A stretch of 64,000 bases of DNA from Actinomycetota bacterium (GCA_026393575.1 JAPKZX010000023.1:31528-95527), one strand, 5' to 3'. Shown: positions 608 through 13,905, numbered from the stretch's first letter. Made by a program: numbers and translations. The notes: generated by a model not told the origin, from the sequence alone.

Positions 608-1411
608 ATGGATTTTGAAACTGTTTTGTATGAGGTAGCCGACGGCGTTGCCACTATCACTTTGAACCGTCCGCAAGCAATGAACGCATGGACTCCACAA
701 TTGAGTGACGAGTTGTCTTTGGCCATGGGTGCTGCTGACGCAAACGACGATGTGCGCGCAGTGGTGCTCACTGGCGCAGGAAAAGCATTTTGTGTTGGCG
801 CTGACCTCAGTGATGGTGAAGAGGGTTTCAGGGCGGGCCAACAAAGCCGTCGCGAAGGCCCACGATGCATGCCGTACAAAGTACGAAAGCCCGTCATTGC
901 GGCCATTAACGGGCATGCGGTCGGAGTTGGCATCACATACCCAATGCTGTGCGACATCCGCATAGTTTCTGAATCAGCCAAGATTCAATACGCCATGGTT
1001 CGCCGTGGCATTTTGCCTGAATTGGGTTCACACGTTCTTCTGCCTCGCGTCATCGGATTCTCTCGTGCAGCAGATTTGTTGTTAACTGGTCGACTCATCA
1101 TGGGCACAGAAGCTGCAGAGATGGGATTAGCTTCACAAGCTCTTCCCACCGAAGAGGTGTTACCTGCTGCGATGACAATTGCTCGCGATATCGCAGAAAA
1201 TGTGGCGCCTGTGTCAGCGGCTCTTGCAAAACAACTGATGTGGAATGGACTCACTGTCGGTATCGACGAAATGATTGCAGCCGAGGGGCGATTGTTGCCT
1301 GGTCTCATCAAAGCTCCTGACTCCGGTGAAGGCGTTCGTGCGTTTTTTGAAAAGAGAACACCGAAGTGGCAGATGCGAGTTTCGACCGACGTGCCAGATC
1401 TCGGTATATGA
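608..1411 (+). CDS. Enoyl-CoA hydratase/isomerase family protein (crotonase fold)
   Basis: YEVADGVATITLNRPQAMNAWTPQLSDEL, GAGKAFCVGADLS, AAINGHAVGVGI motifs. Confidence 0.9.
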   Translation: MDFETVLYEVADGVATITLNRPQAMNAWTPQLSDELSLAMGAADANDDVRAVVLTGAGKAFCVGADLSDGEEGFRAGQQSRREGPRCMPYKVRKPVIAAINGHAVGVGITYPMLCDIRIVSESAKIQYAMVRRGILPELGSHVLLPRVIGFSRAADLLLTGRLIMGTEAAEMGLASQALPTEEVLPAAMTIARDIAENVAPVSAALAKQLMWNGLTVGIDEMIAAEGRLLPGLIKAPDSGEGVRAFFEKRTPKWQMRVSTDVPDLGI

Positions 1412-3108
1412 CCTCGTCGCGCCGTGTAACGATCCTCGCCATCCTTTGTATGGCTGTATCTCTCATTATTGCTTTGGTGACTGCGGCGCGAATCTCAGGG
1501 CCATCTATACGTCCGGACGAATGGGGTTATCTGCTGAATGGTCAGGTGCTCATTGGGCATGAAGAAGTGCGACTTCCTTTTTCATCTATGTACCCAGCAG
1601 GTTTTGGATTAATCACTGGTGCTTGGGCTTGGGTGGGTGGCTCATTGCACATTGCATATCGACTAACACTTTTTACGAACATCGCATTGATGGCCGTACT
1701 TGGTTACTTGGTATTTACGTTCACGGTGAGCACATTGAAGGCCAACCGCACGACTGGGTATCTCGTTGCGGCCCTTGTCATTGCATCGCCCGGCACCTTG
1801 GCTGGTTCGCTGTTTGCGCTACCAGAGACATTGTGCAAAGCGGTCTTCATGTTGCTCGTGGTGTTGATTGGTTCCATGGTTTCTCGACCTCGCCTGATGG
1901 TGGTTGTTCTCTTTGGTGCCGTGGCTGGGCTTGCACCGATTTTTTCGAGTCGACTCGTGGCAATCACAGTCAGTGCTGTTGTTGTGCTCATTGCGCTTGC
2001 ATGGAATGGCATTGTGAGTCGTTCAGCAGCGCTACTTGGTGCGGTATCCCTCGTGGTTGGTTATGTCATCACAAGAAGCGTGAACTCAATTGTTCGCGAT
2101 GTGTTGTATTTCGGACGGCGTTCAGGCGAGAGCCGAATCCTGAATCGTGCCTTCACAGTGCATTTATGGCCAGAAGTCATTCGTGAAGTAGCAGGCCAAA
2201 TTTGGTACGTATCTGCTGCGACTGCGTGTCTGGGTCTCGTTGGTTTGGTTGCAATGGTTCGTGCCGTGAGTAAGAAGGCGCGCGCGTACAAGCGCAGTGA
2301 TGAGCAATCGCCCGAGCGATTTGCATTCGTTTTTATTCTGATGACCTTTGCCTTCTTGATCGTGCTTGGTGCACTCCAATTGGCATTGGGCAAAAGGGCC
2401 GACCATTACATTTACGGTCGATACGTAGAGATGTGTGTTCCTGCTTTGTTCGCAGTTGCATGTGTAACGCTCGAGCGAACAAAGTTGCTCGCAGAGCGTT
2501 TGTGGCGTTGGTCAATTGTGTTTTTCGCTTTTCTGACTGCGATGTACGTCTTGTTGGTTGGTGCAGATGCCGTATGGCGCGCCATTTCGATTGATGGTCC
2601 TATGCGTACAGCCAATGTTCTGGCCATCGACGCATTGAGCCATGCGGTGCGTCGCCCTGGCCTCTTGACTATGACGCCGGTTCTGTGCGCCGTCAGCATT
2701 GCCGTTGTTTATTTGTATATGCGCAAAAAGGAGGTGGCACTCGTGGTTCTTGCCTCGCTATTGCTGGTCTCATCTGCATGGACTACTTCGTCGACTCTCA
2801 TCAACAGGTCGTCGCCTGACAGAGGTGTCGGTGTTGCTTTGCAGGGCGTGAGTCATGCAGATTCGTCTCGCATTGCCTACGACGGCCTGAAGCCTCAAGA
2901 TCGTAACTATTACACCTTGCGATATGCATCCCATCCGTCGCTCATTGTGTGGGTAGATACTCGAACCGATATTCGCATCCCAGAATCATTCGCTTGCCTC
3001 TATGGGTACGCGGATCGCAAGCCGATTGATGGGGAGTGGGAAATTGTTGGTCGCGAAATCTCCATCGAGAGGGTGTTGTGGCGTCGTGTGGGGCAGTCCT
3101 CCTGCTGA
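1408..3108 (+). CDS. Polytopic membrane protein, possible GT-C-like glycosyltransferase; paralogue of 11250..12980
   Basis: Multiple hydrophobic helices; ATGA overlap with the upstream stop suggests start at 1408; shares GPSIRPDEWGYLLNGQ and the C-terminal IDGEWEIVGREISIERVLWRRVGQSSC with the 11250 protein. Confidence 0.75.
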   Translation: MTSSRRVTILAILCMAVSLIIALVTAARISGPSIRPDEWGYLLNGQVLIGHEEVRLPFSSMYPAGFGLITGAWAWVGGSLHIAYRLTLFTNIALMAVLGYLVFTFTVSTLKANRTTGYLVAALVIASPGTLAGSLFALPETLCKAVFMLLVVLIGSMVSRPRLMVVVLFGAVAGLAPIFSSRLVAITVSAVVVLIALAWNGIVSRSAALLGAVSLVVGYVITRSVNSIVRDVLYFGRRSGESRILNRAFTVHLWPEVIREVAGQIWYVSAATACLGLVGLVAMVRAVSKKARAYKRSDEQSPERFAFVFILMTFAFLIVLGALQLALGKRADHYIYGRYVEMCVPALFAVACVTLERTKLLAERLWRWSIVFFAFLTAMYVLLVGADAVWRAISIDGPMRTANVLAIDALSHAVRRPGLLTMTPVLCAVSIAVVYLYMRKKEVALVVLASLLLVSSAWTTSSTLINRSSPDRGVGVALQGVSHADSSRIAYDGLKPQDRNYYTLRYASHPSLIVWVDTRTDIRIPESFACLYGYADRKPIDGEWEIVGREISIERVLWRRVGQSSC

Positions 3109-5220: not shown

Positions 5221-5892
5221 TTATTCCTGTTCTTCTGCGTCTTTGCCGGTCTCAAACGCGCTGCCGCGTTGAGTCTCTTCGTAGCGACGCTTTTTGTCAC
5301 GGATGTTCTTAATTGCAGTGGACGTGCTGCTGAATGCAAGACGTGCATTTGCACCGTCGCGCTTCCATTGCTGAGTGTCTCCTGCGTGAATACCCATGCG
5401 CTCTGCATCGTTGTATGCATCAAGACCTGCTGAAAGGTAGATGAAACTCCAGCCAGCTTCGGTGCGCTCCGCGATGAGTTGACGAATCTGCTCAAGCGTG
5501 AACTCACGACTCTGGTTCTCTTCACCGTCAGTGATCGCCACAAAGATGACGTCTTGTGGTGCAAGACCTGCTGCTACGCGAGCCTCGCCGTCTACCTTTG
5601 CGCGACCAATTGCTAATCCCGTTGCGTCGAGCAGGGGAGTGCCGCCGCGCGGTTGAAAGGTTTGACCGGTGAGATGGGTGATCTCTGCCAACGGAGCGCC
5701 CCAGACTGTGACGTCTTGGGGGTCTTGTGAGTCGAACTGGATGATGGACATGCGTGCATCGTTTCCATTGCTCCGTTGGTCATCGACAAAGGTGTTGAAC
5801 CCTCCGATGACGTCTGACGCAATTGTCGCCATTGAACCTGAACGGTCAATGAGGACCACGATGTGGGTGCTGTTTTCTATTGATGGGGCCAT
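5221..5892 (-). CDS. von Willebrand factor type A (VWA) domain protein
   Basis: HIVVLIDRSGSMA is a DxSxS MIDAS motif; FVAITDGEEN; start at MAPSIENS preceded by AAGGAG. Confidence 0.88.
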   Translation of the reverse strand: MAPSIENSTHIVVLIDRSGSMATIASDVIGGFNTFVDDQRSNGNDARMSIIQFDSQDPQDVTVWGAPLAEITHLTGQTFQPRGGTPLLDATGLAIGRAKVDGEARVAAGLAPQDVIFVAITDGEENQSREFTLEQIRQLIAERTEAGWSFIYLSAGLDAYNDAERMGIHAGDTQQWKRDGANARLAFSSTSTAIKNIRDKKRRYEETQRGSAFETGKDAEEQE

Positions 5893-5909
5893 TGTTACTC
5901 CTTGTAAGG

Positions 5910-5930
5910 ATGTCCTCCGATTAAGGACAT
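5910..5930. promoter_or_regulatory. Inverted repeat just upstream of the VWA gene
   Basis: ATGTCCT-ccgatta-AGGACAT, perfect 7-bp arms, in the nrtR-like/VWA intergenic region. Confidence 0.35.
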
Positions 5931-5984
5931 ATGTACAAGATACCAAGGGGGTGGGTCGTAATTACCCTAAATGGCTGAGACGGG

Positions 5985-6734
5985 CTATCGACGTGTCTTT
6001 GTGTCTTGTGATCGGCGAAACCGAATAGGTGAGGAGAGGGTCGTGGTTCGACCAGCTTTGTACATCTGTGCGGGTCTGCCTGGCAGCGATCCGAAATCTG
6101 AAAGCTCGTCGATTGGAATTACAAGTCCGTCGACGGCGTCTACCTTGCGACGGAAGTTGGCGGGGTCGACTCTGTATTGAAGGAATGCCTCATACACGCC
6201 GCGCAATTCGCTGATTGTAAATTTCGGGTTACAGAAACTGAGAGCCACATTCGTGTCTTCAAGCAGCTGGCGTGCTGCTTTGCGAGCGTCATAGATGATG
6301 TTTGAGTGGTCGAACTCTAAAAGCCGTTTATCTCTCAGTCGCCTGTAGGGAATAAAACTGGCCTCATCTGAGTTAAACGCGGGCTTCAATTGTTCGGGGT
6401 GGGGAACAAGCGCCATGTAGGCAATGGCGATAGCACGAAAACGGTCGTCTCTGTCTGGGTCGCCGTATGCGCCTACATGGTGGAGGTCGCTTGTCTTCAG
6501 ACGAAGGCCAGTTTCTTCACCAACTTTTCGAATGGAGGTATCTGTCAGCTTTTCGTCTTCACCGACTAGCCCACCAGGGAGGGCCCATTTGCCGGCTTTA
6601 CCCTCTGGACGCTTCATCACAAGGACTTCGAGGCGATCCCCGGGTTCTACATCACGGTCAGGATTAATTGTGAAGACAACGGTGTCTACGTACACAAAAA
6701 AGTTCATTTGTTTCGTGCGTTTAAAGGTGGCCAT
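5985..6734 (-). CDS. NrtR-like NUDIX-domain transcriptional regulator (start may be 6707)
   Basis: GKWALPGGLVGEDEKLTDTSIRKVGEETGL NUDIX-box region; C-terminal TISELRGVYEAFLQYRVDPANFRRKVDAVDGLV resembles the NrtR winged helix. Confidence 0.8.
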   Translation of the reverse strand: MATFKRTKQMNFFVYVDTVVFTINPDRDVEPGDRLEVLVMKRPEGKAGKWALPGGLVGEDEKLTDTSIRKVGEETGLRLKTSDLHHVGAYGDPDRDDRFRAIAIAYMALVPHPEQLKPAFNSDEASFIPYRRLRDKRLLEFDHSNIIYDARKAARQLLEDTNVALSFCNPKFTISELRGVYEAFLQYRVDPANFRRKVDAVDGLVIPIDELSDFGSLPGRPAQMYKAGRTTTLSSPIRFRRSQDTKTRR

Positions 6735-6751
6735 ATCGCAATTCTACTCAT
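6704..6751 (-). CDS. Putative 15-codon leader ORF (MSRIAIWPPLNARNK) upstream of the NrtR-like gene
   Basis: GGAGGTGA 5 nt upstream of the ATG; its TGA overlaps the ATG at 6707 of the NrtR-like frame (ATGA). Confidence 0.35.
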   Translation of the reverse strand: MSRIAIWPPLNARNK

Positions 6752-6793
6752 TTTGGTCACCTCCACCCTTATTTATCAACGAAAAAACACCCC

Positions 6794-6812
6794 TGTGTTA
6801 TATTATGTCACA
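6794..6812. promoter_or_regulatory. Imperfect palindrome, candidate operator in a divergent promoter region
   Basis: TGTGttATAtTATgtCACA: 7 of 9 arm pairs match around a central T; lies between the divergent NrtR-like and ADP-ribosylglycohydrolase genes. Confidence 0.45.
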
Positions 6813-6826
6813 TCTACCCTAATCCC

Positions 6827-8362
6827 GTGTTTCGAGAAATTGAGCACAGAAAGCAGAACAACATGGCCCCACACCAAACTCACAAAGCAATAGAGGGTGA
6901 TGATCTCGATTATCACCAGTCCGGACGAGCGCTTGGCTCAATCATTGGTTCCGCAGTCGGAGACGCCACAGGCGCTCCATTTGAGTTTGGTCCTGGTGGA
7001 CAATGGCTTCGTAGGTTTCCAAAACCAGTTCTTGGTGGCATGGGTGAGATGGTGGGCGGTGGCTCTTTCGACTGGGAGCCTGGCGAATTTACGGACGACA
7101 CACAGATGGCTATGGCCCTGGCCGAGTCCCTCATCTCGAGTGGCGGCTTCGATGTTGACTCTGTTTGGGAGTTTTTCCGTGCTTGGTACAAAGAGGCAGT
7201 AGACGTTGGCATCAACACTGGTCGCGTATTGCGCCAGACACGTCACGAGGGGGCAGCAGAGGCTGCTCATCGTGCTCACGGACAAAGTGCCAGCAATGGC
7301 AGCATCATGCGCATTGCACCAGTAGGCGTGTTCGGAGTTCGTCTCGGACGTGCAGACACCATTCGTCTGGCGATTCAGCAATCTGATGTCACTCATTTCG
7401 ATCGTGCTGCTGCAACTGGAGCTGCAATCGTCGCTGAGGTGATTCGTCACTGCATCGTTACCGGCGATTTTGAGTCCGCTCTCAGTGAGGAGACTTTCGT
7501 AGCAGTGGCTCATGAACTTGGGGCCGAGGGCGAAGCACTTGTGGCTCCATATCGCCAGTTGTTGTCTTCGAACTTTGATCCATTCAGTTATGAAGGACAT
7601 TCCAATGGCTCAGCCTGGGTAGCAACGGCACAAGCAGTGTGGGCTATTCGTTCAACGTCTAATTTTCACGATGCGATTGTGGCCGCGATTGAACTCGGAG
7701 GCGACACCGACACTGTTGCTGCGATTGCAGGGTCCATGGCTGGTGCGTTATACGGCATTCAGGGAATTCCGGTGCGCTGGACAACTCATGTTCATGGGTA
7801 TCTCACATTGCCAAACGGAGAAAAGAAGCATTACCGCACTCAAGATTTATTGAATGTTGCACGCTGTCTTCTTGGTTTGGGAAATGCACGTATGTCTCGT
7901 CCAGACACCAAGTTTCCAGCCAAAGAAGTGCATGAGGCTGGAGTGCTGGCGGCAAGTCTCGAAGGAGCTGCCGACGTCGATACGTCGGTAGCCGTGGTGT
8001 CCTTGTGCTTGGTTGCAGATCGTTTCGTTAACCACTCTCATCGTCGTTTGGTGTTTCTTCGCGACGAGCCTCGCATATACAACCCGAACTTGCATTTTGT
8101 GGTTCGCGACGCCGTAGACGCGGTGAATGCGTTCCTGCACGAAGGTAAGAAAGTGGTGGTGCATTGCCATGGTGGACGAAGCCGCACGGCACTCGTGCTC
8201 AAGGCGTGGTACATGCAGCACGAGAACAAAACCCATGACGAGGCCCACGAGTGGCTCTCTGACACATGGCCGCACTATGAAACATGGAACGACTCTTTTT
8301 GGGATTATCTCGAAAACGAGTGGACCGCGCATTTGGCTAGCAGCCTGAAGGAGAACAAGTGA
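6827..8362 (+). CDS. ADP-ribosylglycohydrolase (DraG family) fused to a C-terminal CX5R Cys-phosphatase domain; start may be ATG 6863
   Basis: DraG motifs IGSAVGDATGAPFEF, GEFTDDTQMAMALAESL, NGSIMRIAPVGVF, ELGGDTDTVAAIAGSMAGALYG; C-terminal VVVHCHGGRSRTALVLKAWYM is a PTP/DSP HCX5R loop. Confidence 0.88.
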   Translation: MFREIEHRKQNNMAPHQTHKAIEGDDLDYHQSGRALGSIIGSAVGDATGAPFEFGPGGQWLRRFPKPVLGGMGEMVGGGSFDWEPGEFTDDTQMAMALAESLISSGGFDVDSVWEFFRAWYKEAVDVGINTGRVLRQTRHEGAAEAAHRAHGQSASNGSIMRIAPVGVFGVRLGRADTIRLAIQQSDVTHFDRAAATGAAIVAEVIRHCIVTGDFESALSEETFVAVAHELGAEGEALVAPYRQLLSSNFDPFSYEGHSNGSAWVATAQAVWAIRSTSNFHDAIVAAIELGGDTDTVAAIAGSMAGALYGIQGIPVRWTTHVHGYLTLPNGEKKHYRTQDLLNVARCLLGLGNARMSRPDTKFPAKEVHEAGVLAASLEGAADVDTSVAVVSLCLVADRFVNHSHRRLVFLRDEPRIYNPNLHFVVRDAVDAVNAFLHEGKKVVVHCHGGRSRTALVLKAWYMQHENKTHDEAHEWLSDTWPHYETWNDSFWDYLENEWTAHLASSLKENK

Positions 8363-9783
8363 CAACACTTTTGCAAGAAGAAGAACGCCTTGGGCAACTT
8401 TTGTTGCAGCTCGCAGATGTCGATGCTGATCTTGTTATTCAACTAGACCCTGAGACGGGTGGTGAGACAACGGTGTGGCCAGTGAACTTCACTACGCCTG
8501 GAAATTCTGTGCAGTGCACAGCCACGTTGTACGAGCGCTTTAACGGCACAGTGGTCTTGCGTATCGATGCAGATGTGCAAACTGTTGTCGATTCTGCCGA
8601 AGTGCGTCGCTGGGTGACTTCGTATACGGGTTGGATGCCATTCGTGCAGGCACGCATCGATCATGTGAATCGTAAGAAAGTGAAAATCATCGCGACGCAT
8701 TCATTTTTGGCAAACGAAGTTACTCGTGCTCAACTCGAACAAACACTTGGCTCTCTCGACTATGTCGCGGCCAAGTGGGGAGTTGCTTTGCTGGAGTTAG
8801 AGCAGGCTCGTGAGTCCGCCGAAAATGACACGGCGCAAGAAGAAGCAGATGATGAAGATCCTTTTGCAGTTGACACATCAAAGAATGAGTCTTCGACTCC
8901 TGTAGTTGCTCCGTCAGTTGCTGGGCTCGAAGAGGCATTGAAGAACATCGATGATTTGGTTGGGCTCGGGCCTGTGAAACGTCTGGTGCATCAGTTTGTC
9001 GCTGTGCAACGTGCCCAGTTGGTGCGTAAAGGCGCCGGTTTCAAAGTGTTAACGCCTTCGCCACACTTGGTTTTCAAAGGTAACCCCGGTACGGGCAAGA
9101 CAACTGTGGCACGCCACGTTGGACGTTTGTATCGCGAGCTGGGTCTTTTGTCGCGTGGTCACCTTGTAGAGGTTGATCGTTCGGGTTTGGTTGGCGGTTA
9201 TGTCGGGCAAACCGCACTCAAGACCAAAGAAGTTCTTGATTCTGCCAAAGGTGGCGTTTTGTTTATCGACGAGGCATATGCGCTGAATCGTCCACACGCA
9301 AACGACTACGGACATGAGGTGATGGAAACAGTTCTCACGTACATGGAGAACAACCGCGGCGACTTAGTCGTAGTTGTCGCTGGGTATCCGGCCGAAATGG
9401 ACGATTTCTTGAAGATGAATCCGGGCATTGCTAGTCGTTTTGACTACACACTTGATTTTCCTGATTTCTCAGATGACGAACTTGTGCAGATCTTTAAGGA
9501 GATGGCCGCCGAACATGACTACACGCTGGATGAACTTGCAGTTGACGCTCTGAAAGTGGTGTTGTCGTCATGGGGACGTGAAGAGGGGTTCGGTAATGCG
9601 CGTGATATCCGCCGTTTGTTCCATGGTGTGGTTGCAGCCCATAGTGAATGGGTCGTCGAGTCTGAATTGAAAAGTGGTGCAGAACTCTCGCGTATCCAGT
9701 CCGTGCATGTCCCGCTTGGGGAGGCCTTGGCGGCGTTAGGCGAGATGGAACAGATCAAGAATCTTGGGCCTGGTTACCTCTAA
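8359..9783 (+). CDS. CbxX/CfqX (SpoVK-like) AAA ATPase with about 190-residue N-terminal domain
   Basis: Walker A GNPGTGKTTVARHVG, Walker B GGVLFIDEAYAL; GTGA overlap with the upstream stop and AAGGAG SD. Confidence 0.88.
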   Translation: MTTLLQEEERLGQLLLQLADVDADLVIQLDPETGGETTVWPVNFTTPGNSVQCTATLYERFNGTVVLRIDADVQTVVDSAEVRRWVTSYTGWMPFVQARIDHVNRKKVKIIATHSFLANEVTRAQLEQTLGSLDYVAAKWGVALLELEQARESAENDTAQEEADDEDPFAVDTSKNESSTPVVAPSVAGLEEALKNIDDLVGLGPVKRLVHQFVAVQRAQLVRKGAGFKVLTPSPHLVFKGNPGTGKTTVARHVGRLYRELGLLSRGHLVEVDRSGLVGGYVGQTALKTKEVLDSAKGGVLFIDEAYALNRPHANDYGHEVMETVLTYMENNRGDLVVVVAGYPAEMDDFLKMNPGIASRFDYTLDFPDFSDDELVQIFKEMAAEHDYTLDELAVDALKVVLSSWGREEGFGNARDIRRLFHGVVAAHSEWVVESELKSGAELSRIQSVHVPLGEALAALGEMEQIKNLGPGYL

Positions 9784-9842: not shown

Positions 9843-11213
9843 ATGAGCATCATCGACTCTTCATCCGATATGGCATCTCGACCTTGGCACCTGCAGGGCA
9901 ATTGGGAGCCAATGCAGCAAGAAATTCATAGCACCGATTTACGGGTCATCGGTCAGATTCCTCGCGAACTCGACGGTGTTTATGTTCGAACTGGTCCAAA
10001 CCCTGCATCTGGATCTTCTCCGCATTGGTTTTATGGTGACGGCATGTTGCACGGTGTGCGTTTGCGAGACGGCCGTGCCGAGTGGTATCGAAATCGTTAC
10101 ATAGAGACGCCAAGTGTTGCCAAGGTTCGCGGAACCGCATACGAACGCGGACCCGAGTTGGGGCGGGGAACAGGTAACACGCACGTGGTTCCACACAACG
10201 GTTCACTCCTCGCTTTAGAAGAGGGTCATTGGCCGTGGAAGATCAATAGTTCGCTTGAAACAATGGGTTATGAAAACTATGGCGGTGCTCTCACGTGTTC
10301 CATGACTGCTCACCCAAAGGTGTGTCCAGATACTGGCGAGTTATTGGCGTTCAGTTATTTTTCTTTTGAACCGCCATATGTTCACTACATCCGTATTGGA
10401 GCCGACGGAGAGCTGAAGCAGTTAGATCCCATTGATGTTCCAAACATGGTGATGATGCATGACTTCAATGTCACGCGTAACAACATCGTGTTCATGGACT
10501 TGCCTGTTCTGTTCGATCTTGGACAACTGTCAACAGGATTTCCTTTTAAGTTTGATCGCAATGCCGGAGCACGGTTATGCGTGCTGTCACGCAATGGGCG
10601 AGGCTCCGATACACGTTGGTTCGACATTGATCCGTGTTACGTGTTCCACCCTGTTAACGCATATGACGACGGTGACAACATCGTGCTCCACGTCTCTCGT
10701 CAGAACGAAGCATTCGGTTCAAGTTCCGATGACTACGCAGAAGTGGGACGTTTGTATCGATGGACCATCAATCCGGTGACAGGGAAAGTGTCAGAGGAAA
10801 TGGTGGATGAGCGTCCCGGAGATTTTGGTCGCGTGAACGATGCGTATGTTGGAAAGAAAGCTCAATACGCATACCTAATGTCGCTTGCTGGTGAAGGAGA
10901 TTCCGAAGAACCGGTGTATGGCTCGTCATTGTGGAAGTACGACCTTCACACAGGTGAGTGTTGGGAGCATCATCTCGGACCAACTACACGTGGCGGTGAA
11001 CCAGTTTTTGCTGCTCGCGAGAATTCATCTGCCGAAGACGATGGCTACGTAATGACAATTGTGCACGACACGCAATCCGGTGTCTCACGGCTTGTGATTA
11101 TTGATGCACAGGATTTTTCTTCTGCACCCATCGCAGAGGTGTATTTGCCTCAGCGAGTCCCATATGGGGCCCATGGCAACTGGGTGCCCAATGGCGTCAT
11201 CGTCATGCAATAG
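9843..11213 (+). CDS. Carotenoid oxygenase (RPE65/CCD family)
   Basis: GVYVRTGPNPASGSSPHWFYGDGMLHGVRLRDGRAEWYRNRYIET, MTAHPKVCPDTGELLAFSY, MMHDFNVTRNNIVFMDLP. Confidence 0.93.
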   Translation: MSIIDSSSDMASRPWHLQGNWEPMQQEIHSTDLRVIGQIPRELDGVYVRTGPNPASGSSPHWFYGDGMLHGVRLRDGRAEWYRNRYIETPSVAKVRGTAYERGPELGRGTGNTHVVPHNGSLLALEEGHWPWKINSSLETMGYENYGGALTCSMTAHPKVCPDTGELLAFSYFSFEPPYVHYIRIGADGELKQLDPIDVPNMVMMHDFNVTRNNIVFMDLPVLFDLGQLSTGFPFKFDRNAGARLCVLSRNGRGSDTRWFDIDPCYVFHPVNAYDDGDNIVLHVSRQNEAFGSSSDDYAEVGRLYRWTINPVTGKVSEEMVDERPGDFGRVNDAYVGKKAQYAYLMSLAGEGDSEEPVYGSSLWKYDLHTGECWEHHLGPTTRGGEPVFAARENSSAEDDGYVMTIVHDTQSGVSRLVIIDAQDFSSAPIAEVYLPQRVPYGAHGNWVPNGVIVMQ

Positions 11214-11249
11214 CCCACGAGGAAAATCCAGCACGACTACTATGTAGAA

Positions 11250-12980
11250 GTGTTCTCCCGAATCGCGACCGTGATCGCTGATGGCCCCAAGGTAGAGGCA
11301 CGGCGACTGCAAGCACTGATTTCGGTGGTGGCAGCTGTAGCTGTCGGAGTATTCATGCTCACGATCGTTTGGCGGATGAAGGGCCCAACTGTTCATCCAG
11401 ACGAGTTCGGTTTCTTGTTGAATGGGCAGATTTTTCTTGGTCATCACGAAGCTGTCGTGCCAACGGGAAGTTTCTATCCGGTGGGGTATGGGGTAGTCAC
11501 CGCAATAGGTTCTGCAGTGCTGGGTGGCATTAGTGGTGGTTACAGATTCGCTCTCTTTTTTAACTTTGTTTGTGCCGTAGGTGTAGCCGGTGTTATTTAT
11601 GTTCTTGCACGTCGCGTCTTTCAGTTGCCTACCTATGTTGCGGTAATCGGTGCGTGTTTGGTGTACGTGGCGCCAGGGACTGTCGTTAGCTCGGCTTATG
11701 CATGGCCAGAGACTGCAGCACGTTTGATGGCCCTGGTGTGGGTGTTGTTGCTTGCTCGTGTTGCCGAATCAATGAATGTTCGCCTCATGATGGCAATCGG
11801 AGTTCTTGTTGGAATCTTGCCCGTGTTGCATGGCCGATTCACTTTGTTTATTCCCATCACGTTCTTGCTCTTCGGCTGGTGGTTTCTCACGAAGCAGTGC
11901 TCACGAGTGGTTCTATGTATTAGCGGTGCTCTCGTCTTTATTGCCTACTTTGTTTCGTACAGTCTCAATACATTTGTCAAGACACTCGTATACACCACCT
12001 CGTATGACCAAGAGAATCGATTGTTATTGCGACTGCTCAAGCCCGAGTTATGGACGGCATTAGTTCGCACCACGGCTGGTCAAACCTGGTACTTACTGGC
12101 AACATCTGCTGGTTTGGTTGGTATCGCACTCATGTTTATGGTCGCAAATATTTTTGCTCCTTCAACGCAGAAAAAGTCTCGAGACCCACAGACCATTGCC
12201 ATGATTGCAATCTTGCTTGGCACGATTTCCATTCTCTTCACCGGTGGATTGCAGTTGCTCTACGGACGTCGTGCTGATCATCTGATTTATGGCCGTTACG
12301 TGGAAGTGATGGTTCCTGCGCTTTGGTTGGTGGGGATTGTGGCACTGTATAAGGCTCATCGTTTTGTCTTGCGAGTGTGGCCTGTATCTGTGGCGGCATT
12401 CATCGGCATCTGTTTTGCTTATCAAATCATTGATGGGTTGGACCGCGTGAAAGATGGCTATCAACGCAACACTTTGGTGTTTCCCAATACCGTCGGTGTT
12501 GATGCGATGAGCAAACTGGTATCGCCTGGTTTTGTCTCGTTCACGATTGCTTTTTCTCTTGTCTCTGCGGTTCTGTATGTGGTGTATGTGAAGCGAGCAT
12601 CTTGGGCTCTTGCCCTGTTGGCACTGTTGCTCGCTGCAGGCTCAATTACTTCTGCGCAAGATTCTCTGTTGCCGCGCGGTGATTATCTGGAGGCAGCTGG
12701 GTCATCGCGTGCAGTTGCATTGATGCCTGGCGTTGAAGAGATCGGTTTCGATAAGGGTATTTCTAACGATGCGTTGTACTACTTCCTACGATACAAATTG
12801 CACCCTGTTCGCTTGACTTATTTTGATGCCTCAACACCTGATGCTGTGATTGACGCCTCTTATGCATGTATTTACGGATGGCGTGAGAGGCCTCCAATTG
12901 AAGGATCCTGGGAGATCGTCGCTGAAGAGCCGGGGTTCCAGCGAGTATTGTTTAGACGAGTGGGTTCAACTCACTGTTGA
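11250..12980 (+). CDS. Polytopic membrane protein, possible GT-C-like glycosyltransferase; paralogue of 1408..3108
   Basis: GPTVHPDEFGFLLNGQIFLGHHEAVVPTGSFYPVGYGVVTA and C-terminal IEGSWEIVAEEPGFQRVLFRRVGSTHC match the 1408 protein; many hydrophobic helices. Confidence 0.75.
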   Translation: MFSRIATVIADGPKVEARRLQALISVVAAVAVGVFMLTIVWRMKGPTVHPDEFGFLLNGQIFLGHHEAVVPTGSFYPVGYGVVTAIGSAVLGGISGGYRFALFFNFVCAVGVAGVIYVLARRVFQLPTYVAVIGACLVYVAPGTVVSSAYAWPETAARLMALVWVLLLARVAESMNVRLMMAIGVLVGILPVLHGRFTLFIPITFLLFGWWFLTKQCSRVVLCISGALVFIAYFVSYSLNTFVKTLVYTTSYDQENRLLLRLLKPELWTALVRTTAGQTWYLLATSAGLVGIALMFMVANIFAPSTQKKSRDPQTIAMIAILLGTISILFTGGLQLLYGRRADHLIYGRYVEVMVPALWLVGIVALYKAHRFVLRVWPVSVAAFIGICFAYQIIDGLDRVKDGYQRNTLVFPNTVGVDAMSKLVSPGFVSFTIAFSLVSAVLYVVYVKRASWALALLALLLAAGSITSAQDSLLPRGDYLEAAGSSRAVALMPGVEEIGFDKGISNDALYYFLRYKLHPVRLTYFDASTPDAVIDASYACIYGWRERPPIEGSWEIVAEEPGFQRVLFRRVGSTHC

Positions 12981-13005
12981 ACCTTTTGAACACCTAGGAA
13001 TAAGA

Positions 13006-13905
13006 ATGACAAGCGAGTCTGAATATGACATCAGTGTGGTGTTGCCCATCTTCAATGAGAAAGGGCATCTAAAAACTGAGATCGAGCGAATTCGAGTCGC
13101 GCTTGATGCGTCGAAGTATTCCTACGAGTTGATTGTCGTGGACGATGGATCCAATGATGGGTCTGAGCAAGAGCTTGCTGCAATTCCCAACATTCGTTTG
13201 ATCACTCACCGGGTGAATCAGGGAAGTGGTGCTGCACGGCGCACAGGTACAACAGCGGCGCGTGGCAGGGTCGTGGTGTGGACCGACGTTGATATGACGT
13301 ACCCAAATGATCTCATCCCAGAGTTAGTTGACTCGATGGAAGGCTTCGATCACATTGTTGGTTGGCGTCAAACCGAAGAGGGAACCCACAAGATTTTGCG
13401 TACCCCTGCCAAGTGGCTGATCCGCAAATTGGCCAGCTACTTGTCGGAAACTGATATCAAAGATCTCAACTCTGGGCTTCGGGCATTCCGTCGTGATGTG
13501 GCCATGCAATATGTGCATCACCTTCCCAAAGGTTTCTCCTGTGTCACAACACTTACGATGTCGTTCCTCGGTAATGGTTATTCAGTTGGGTTTTTCCCCA
13601 TTGAGTATTTCCCTCGCGCGGGACGTTCCAAGTTTCATTGGCTAAGCGATACTCGCCGTTATGTACTGCAAGTAGTGCGCATGACCCTTTCATATAATCC
13701 GCTTAAGGTGTTCTTGCCTTTGGGCTTATTGCTTCTTGGTGTTGGCACTGTAAAACTTGGTATCGACTGGGCTGGTCGCGATTTCAAACTTGCCGCCAAT
13801 ACGTTGCTGTTGTTCTTTGCCTCCCTTCAGGTGATCACTGTTGGTTTGTTGGCAGATCTTGTAGTACGCGCAACAAAGAGCCCTGTTTCTATTCCACCCG
13901 TGTGA
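13006..13905 (+). CDS. Glycosyltransferase family 2 (dolichyl-phosphate mannosyltransferase-like)
   Basis: DISVVLPIFNEKGHLKTEIERI, ELIVVDDGSNDGS, VVWTDVDMTYPND; two C-terminal hydrophobic helices. Confidence 0.9.
   Translation: MTSESEYDISVVLPIFNEKGHLKTEIERIRVALDASKYSYELIVVDDGSNDGSEQELAAIPNIRLITHRVNQGSGAARRTGTTAARGRVVVWTDVDMTYPNDLIPELVDSMEGFDHIVGWRQTEEGTHKILRTPAKWLIRKLASYLSETDIKDLNSGLRAFRRDVAMQYVHHLPKGFSCVTTLTMSFLGNGYSVGFFPIEYFPRAGRSKFHWLSDTRRYVLQVVRMTLSYNPLKVFLPLGLLLLGVGTVKLGIDWAGRDFKLAANTLLLFFASLQVITVGLLADLVVRATKSPVSIPPV

Follow-up and report, generated by a model that had tools for sequence, protein, structure and literature searches.

A divergent gene module in a freshwater actinobacterium encoding an ADP-ribosylglycohydrolase-phosphatase, an NrtR-like regulator, a VWA protein and an AAA+ ATPase with a predicted chaperone-like domain

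We analysed a stretch of 64,000 nucleotides (the window) from the genome of a freshwater actinobacterium (GCA_026393575.1 JAPKZX010000023.1:31528-95527), in which four open reading frames (ORFs) between positions 5221 and 9783 form two divergent pairs. The minus-strand pair encodes a VWA protein and an NrtR-like regulator, the plus-strand pair an ADP-ribosylglycohydrolase (ARG) fused to a Cys-phosphatase and an AAA+ ATPase (Table 1). An original prediction had described these genes from their sequence and proposed that they sense and reverse ADP-ribosylation as one unit. All four ORFs lie where it had placed them, and profile searches of each protein bore out its domain assignments, the ARG-phosphatase fusion among them, and the divergent arrangement. 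The source genome comprises 129 contigs and is 82% complete, the genomes of the genus are mostly drafts, and many of the loci carrying two names are one and the same contig.

Table 1. Features of the module, with positions counted from the first letter of the window.
Feature	Position	Strand	Evidence or remark
VWA protein, 223 aa, MIDAS intact	5221..5892	(-)	PF13519 (VWA_2) E=2.6e-4, sub-threshold
Degenerate copy of the element, CCACCCCCTTGGTATCTT, upstream of VWA	5937..5954	(-)	one hexamer mismatch
NrtR-like regulator, NUDIX + winged-helix, 249 aa	5985..6734	(-)	PF00293 5e-12, PF21906 (NrtR_WHD) 7e-12
Divergent promoter region	6735..6862	.	between regulator and ARG start
Candidate conserved promoter/operator element, ACACCCCTGTGTTATATT	6787..6804	(+)	sole ACACCCN4-8TATANT match in 64 kb
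ARG (DraG-type) fused to Cys-phosphatase (DSP-type)	6863..8362	(+)	PF03747 1e-62, PF00782 (DSPc) 7.5e-11
Predicted TY-chaperone-like domain (type III secretion chaperone/YbjN fold), N-terminus of AAA+ protein	8359..8832	(+)	AlphaFold + Foldseek
Linker and CbxX/SpoVK-type AAA+ ATPase core	8833..9783	(+)	Walker A GNPGTGKTT, Walker B VLFIDEAY

The ARG-phosphatase ORF is open from a GTG at 6827 (6827-8362), and its real start is probably the ATG at 6863, where the homologues begin. Numbered from the GTG, residues T89, D90, D91, D293, D295, H446, C447 and R453 are invariant among 20 homologous fusion proteins; the first five we take, from knowledge of DraG/ARH, to be the metal site of the ARG domain. 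The phosphatase motif of the fusion reads HCHGGRSRT, and the HCX5R motif is intact in all 20 homologues. Scores miss the curated NCBIfam cut-offs for the nitrogenase-linked DraG (140 of 337 bits) and for Tri1 (149 of 490 bits). The Cys-phosphatase had been recognised correctly, but the reversal of phosphorylation ascribed to it is not required, as the enzyme may act on ADP-ribose products.

The regulator aligns over its full length with AraR (5bs6, BtAraR; 6e-21) and with the NrtR structure 3gz5 (1e-13), and the C-terminal DNA-binding domain on which the proposed role depends is present. In its Nudix box, G-x5-E-x7-RKVGEETGL, Lys takes the place of one Glu of REuxEE; among its relatives the box is intact in some and degenerate in others. 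The box is likewise degenerate in MsNrtR, where hydrolase activity is undetectable and the response to ADP-ribose is kept (PMC6800001). Arg42, conserved in most homologues, is the counterpart of Arg41 in SoNrtR, a residue in contact with the phosphate of ADP-ribose (PMC4666351). The protein shares the NUDIX sensor and the winged helix with the NrtR family (SoNrtR, MsNrtR, BtAraR) and differs from it in being linked to ARG and not to NAD or sugar genes, and in that its operator is only a candidate. Several Nudix-helix-turn-helix regulators of the Geodermatophilaceae (L127, L117, L120, L131, L103) are longer (365-399 aa) and have an additional C-terminal domain, similar by eye to a small protein encoded right after ARG (cluster 39).

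The VWA ORF (5221-5946) opens at an upstream TTG, and translation likely starts at the ATG at 5892, which is preceded by AAGGAG. Its metal-ion-dependent adhesion site (MIDAS) motif, DRSGSM...GGT...TDGE, is complete, as had been predicted, and orthologues adjoin NrtR in sister genomes.

The AAA+ gene (8359-9783, plus strand) begins at a GTG that overlaps the TGA of the ARG-phosphatase gene by 4 nt, as the original prediction had it, and this overlap is kept in most relatives. The core, present in a single copy in the source genome, matches AAA at 3e-15 and is closest to SpoVK, CbbX and EccA, with which it shares the Walker motifs and the tyrosine pore loop (Y281); it also retains the arginine finger, SRF. 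It differs from these families in its N-terminal domain, in scores far under their equivalog cut-offs (CbbX 231 of 459, SpoVK 255 of 423, EccA 221 of 467 bits, curated by NCBIfam) and in its surroundings, where no Rubisco, sporulation or ESX context was seen; identification as the Rubisco activase CbbX was rejected on the score. We modelled the N-terminal domain in AlphaFold with nine homologues and obtained a predicted local distance difference test score (pLDDT) of 86.7 and a predicted template-modelling score of 0.81, with the order alpha-beta-beta-beta-alpha-beta-beta-alpha if the pair of short strands making up the first beta is counted once. The best Foldseek matches were 2plg, ExsC, YbjN and AmyR (probability 1.00, E about 2e-3). 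Of the top 20 PDB matches (probability 0.97-1.00, E from 2e-3, template-modelling score 0.4-0.7), all but the operon regulator 8q8o and the structural-genomics entry 2plg belong to the YbjN family or to type III secretion chaperones (ExsC, YbjN, AmyR, SigE, VecA, SycH, SycN-YscB). The domain models as a TY-chaperone fold, so that a chaperone and an unfoldase would be fused in one protein. It was found in 4 of 298 genomes of the order, each time beside ARG, and its profile gave no relatives beyond the genus in 397 sampled genomes of the phylum. The original prediction had likened the ATPase and the VWA protein to MoxR-VWA pairs; that reading was rejected, the best matches being CbxX/SpoVK, with AAA_5 below cut-off and no match to a MoxR model, and the analogy is wrong because the AAA+ protein is of the CbxX/SpoVK type with a TY-chaperone-like N-terminal domain.

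The genes appear to be tied together by a short promoter element. Its pattern was chosen after inspection of eleven NrtR-divergent regions and then fixed; ACACCC-N3-9-TA[ATG][AT] occurs in 9 of the 11, against a mean of 0.18 and a maximum of 3 in shuffled sequences, and most NrtR-divergent loci have the form ACACCC-N3-9-TATA in front of ARG. Scanned with the last positions slightly widened, loci outside the derivation set also carry the element: in L065/L066, whose ARG and NrtR are not linked, it stands about 67 bp before the ARG match, and in L145-L147 it precedes VWA genes that are likewise unlinked. Canonical copies precede VWA in L069 and L145-L147, and in G450, where AAA+ and NrtR diverge without an intervening ARG, the element stands before the AAA+ gene. 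With the element in front of each of them, ARG, AAA+ and VWA behave as one regulon. A stricter form gave 27 matches in 450 kb of loci, several of which duplicate one genome, with about 23 before ARG, AAA+ or VWA; the reversed pattern gave 20 in the same 450 kb, so the signal lies in the positions of the matches and not in their total. A genome-wide search yielded 11 matches, fewer than the 16 of the reversed control, and we therefore claim no further members of the regulon.

Matches to the ARG-phosphatase fusion, some partial or ARG-only, were found in 34 of 151 genomes of the family, and a scan of genomes of 85,462 species located the fusion elsewhere in metagenome-assembled genomes of Acidimicrobiia and in Blastococcus, Geodermatophilus, Kineococcus, Klenkia and Modestobacter. 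Among 78 parsed loci, a regulator homologue lies within three genes of ARG in at least 22, an ARPP-1-like gene in at least 14, AAA+ in at least 8 and VWA in at least 5, all lower bounds because contigs often end inside loci. Geodermatophilaceae loci with an NrtR-like regulator near ARG have ARPP-1 (PF20208), a family named after ARG-centred systems, in the operon. Within the genus, the site flanked by ECH-ABH-ACAD on one side and by a glycosyltransferase block on the other is empty in G447, a sister genome, and holds VWA-NrtR only in G104, G126 and G438, VWA-NrtR-ARG in G093, G443 and G445, NrtR-ARG-AAA+ in G070, G136 and G440, and all four genes in G448 as well as in the window; G450 has AAA+ diverging from NrtR-VWA and lacks ARG there. 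Nine of the 11 AAA+ copies in 32 genus genomes adjoin an ARG gene, the tenth is that of G450, and the eleventh (G448:C378) has neither ARG nor NrtR-VWA within its short contig. The proposed arrangement thus recurs in sister genomes, but AAA+ and VWA are gained and lost; these two genes are accessory, and NrtR with ARG-phosphatase is the commonest pair.

ARG-centred host systems have been predicted to counter viral ADP-ribosylation, with ARG, a fused or adjacent rhodanese-type phosphatase, a Nudix-helix-turn-helix or WYL regulator and a peptide-binding chaperone (VWA, SseB or TY-Chap) among their parts (Iyer et al. 2022; PMC9503650, section 3.8). The window matches them in its ARG domain, in the rhodanese-superfamily Cys-phosphatase fused to it, in the NUDIX-NrtR_WHD regulator, in peptide-binding chaperones, here the VWA protein and the TY-like fold modelled on the AAA+ protein, and in the turnover of the module. 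These systems are described with no genomically coupled ADP-ribosyltransferase or sirtuin; for the window, no transferase was found among the module genes. It departs from them in adding a CbxX/SpoVK AAA+ ATPase with a TY-chaperone-like domain and in having no ARPP, Macro or nuclease gene in this copy. Parts, association and shared element being established from sequence and comparison, and the chaperone-like AAA+ domain by modelling, we give a probability of roughly 55% to the module being a variant of the system for reversing ADP-ribosylation that Iyer et al. predicted. The ADP-ribose theme of the original prediction is likely, and its domains and layout hold, while the MoxR analogy and the obligate four-gene unit fall away. 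The kind of system, predicted in 2022, is not new; what is new here is the conserved element before ARG, AAA+ and VWA and, as modelled, the fusion of a TY chaperone to an AAA+ ATPase. The TY-chaperone fold occurs in ARG systems as separate chaperones (PMC9503650), and the text on ARG systems there names no AAA+ and does not mention such a fusion. The literature searched yielded no experiments that test ARG-centred systems.

The module would probably serve to strip ADP-ribose from the cell's own proteins after modification by an outsider such as a phage. A dimer of the NrtR-like protein would repress ARG-phosphatase-AAA+, its own gene and VWA. Upon ADP-ribosylation of proteins, for which a foreign enzyme such as a phage ADP-ribosyltransferase is the most likely agent, ARG at its basal level would free ADP-ribose, which would bind the NUDIX domain and lift repression. 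ARG would then take ADP-ribose off arginine (or other residues), and the Cys-phosphatase fused to it would process a phosphate carried by either the product or the target. For remodelling, the TY-chaperone domain may pass proteins that are modified or misfolded on to the AAA+ pore, and VWA may act as a partner that binds peptides. The same logic of induction and removal is proposed for the wider group in PMC9503650, as a prediction there too; the module would add an unfoldase to a pathway drawn so far with hydrolases and passive chaperones only. Because the compact, divergent units share one candidate element, both the sensing loop from free ADP-ribose through NrtR to ARG and the ATP-driven remodelling are directly testable. 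Tentatively, and with the odds against it, the TY-chaperone-AAA+ and VWA proteins may be an ADP-ribose-induced protein quality-control machine that recognises and unfolds ADP-ribosylated proteins and needs no linked hydrolase to work, as G450 would illustrate, though it can also work with one; if so, the response to ADP-ribosylation would have an unfoldase arm that had not been described.

Several observations weigh against a variant of the ARG-centred system. The window surrounds the module with metabolic genes and no defence island, and NrtR-VWA stands without ARG at the synteny site in three genomes, two of which have ARG elsewhere. The VWA assignment is below the Pfam cut-off, and the Foldseek E-values of the N-terminal domain lie just above 1e-3. 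The element is palindromic in close relatives only and occupies the space between the customary -35 and -10 positions, and could thus be a common promoter and not an NrtR operator; co-regulation is supported in either case.

It is also conceivable, if unlikely, that a transferase of the host, encoded elsewhere, modifies a host protein and that the module reverses this, as in DraT-DraG. The DraG-type fold and catalytic residues would suit this, and DraT-DraG and DarT-DarG/NADAR likewise use an ADP-ribosylhydrolase as the reverser; those systems have a cognate transferase, which we did not find for the window module. The original prediction had seen no ADP-ribosyltransferase in the window, and none was found near the module or among its genes (sirtuins were not searched for). 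DarT gave no match in any of the 32 genomes of the genus, which are incomplete; PF01129 likewise gave no match in these 32, a result that is uninformative because its positive control was silent. Scores far below the DraG and Tri1 cut-offs and the patchy presence in the genus argue further against regulation of a host protein, whereas a possible R-S-ExE transferase pattern in four Geodermatophilaceae ARG operons speaks for it. The protein in question (cluster 28), encoded downstream of ARG (L116:9850-11106, L117:10243-11502, L135:10240-11490, L136:9467-10447), has an invariant GRG ... SLS ... ExE, read by eye; PDB and Pfam searches with it gave no match, and its AlphaFold model (pLDDT 51) is too poor to interpret. 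If this reading is true, a writer enzyme sits in those operons.

A role in small-molecule salvage, with soluble ADP-ribose derivatives as substrates and NrtR as a regulator of NAD homeostasis, is distinctly unlikely. In other bacteria, regulators of the NrtR family respond to ADP-ribose and govern NAD genes (PMC6800001, PMC4666351), and a Macro gene lies near an ARG-AAA+ pair in L152, but no gene for NAD biosynthesis or salvage was seen among the immediate neighbours of the module, and an unfoldase with a chaperone domain beside a VWA protein suggests macromolecular substrates. We regard it as improbable that AAA+ and VWA form a metabolic chaperone of the MoxR-VWA or CbbX type that is a mere neighbour of ARG: the core is nearest to CbbX/SpoVK/EccA and in G450 the two genes flank NrtR without ARG, yet scores reach about half of the cut-offs, the AAA+ gene is nearly always beside ARG and translationally coupled to it, and the G450 copy still keeps NrtR and the element. 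A chance neighbourhood of unrelated genes, which many ARG loci without AAA+ and VWA might suggest, is scarcely credible, because the arrangement recurs in sister species at about 42-75% regulator identity and over diverged genomes with a shared promoter element, so that the conservation data contradict it.

Other ARG loci differ in their company. In G445 (L152:7702-11355) an ARG has no phosphatase, the AAA+ protein has a different N-terminus and a Macro-domain gene lies nearby on the other strand, and in another family of the order (L142, L143) a sigma-70 region 4-like gene and then a small conserved gene come between ARG and the AAA+ gene downstream of it. In Blastococcus and Klenkia, EVE/NucS-like, SRA-HNH and HNH_2 genes adjoin ARG (L127:7180-7995, 11015-13210; L137:11146-12039); these genes would fit a conflict-system context. 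Between the AAA+ gene of the window and the glycosyltransferase block lies a carotenoid-oxygenase (RPE65-type) gene (9843-11213), which was seen in this position in the window and L064 and not in other sister loci. Two similar membrane proteins of ~580 aa are encoded on either side of the module, at 1366-3108 and 11250-12980 (...RPDEWGYLLNGQ... / ...HPDEFGFLLNGQ...).

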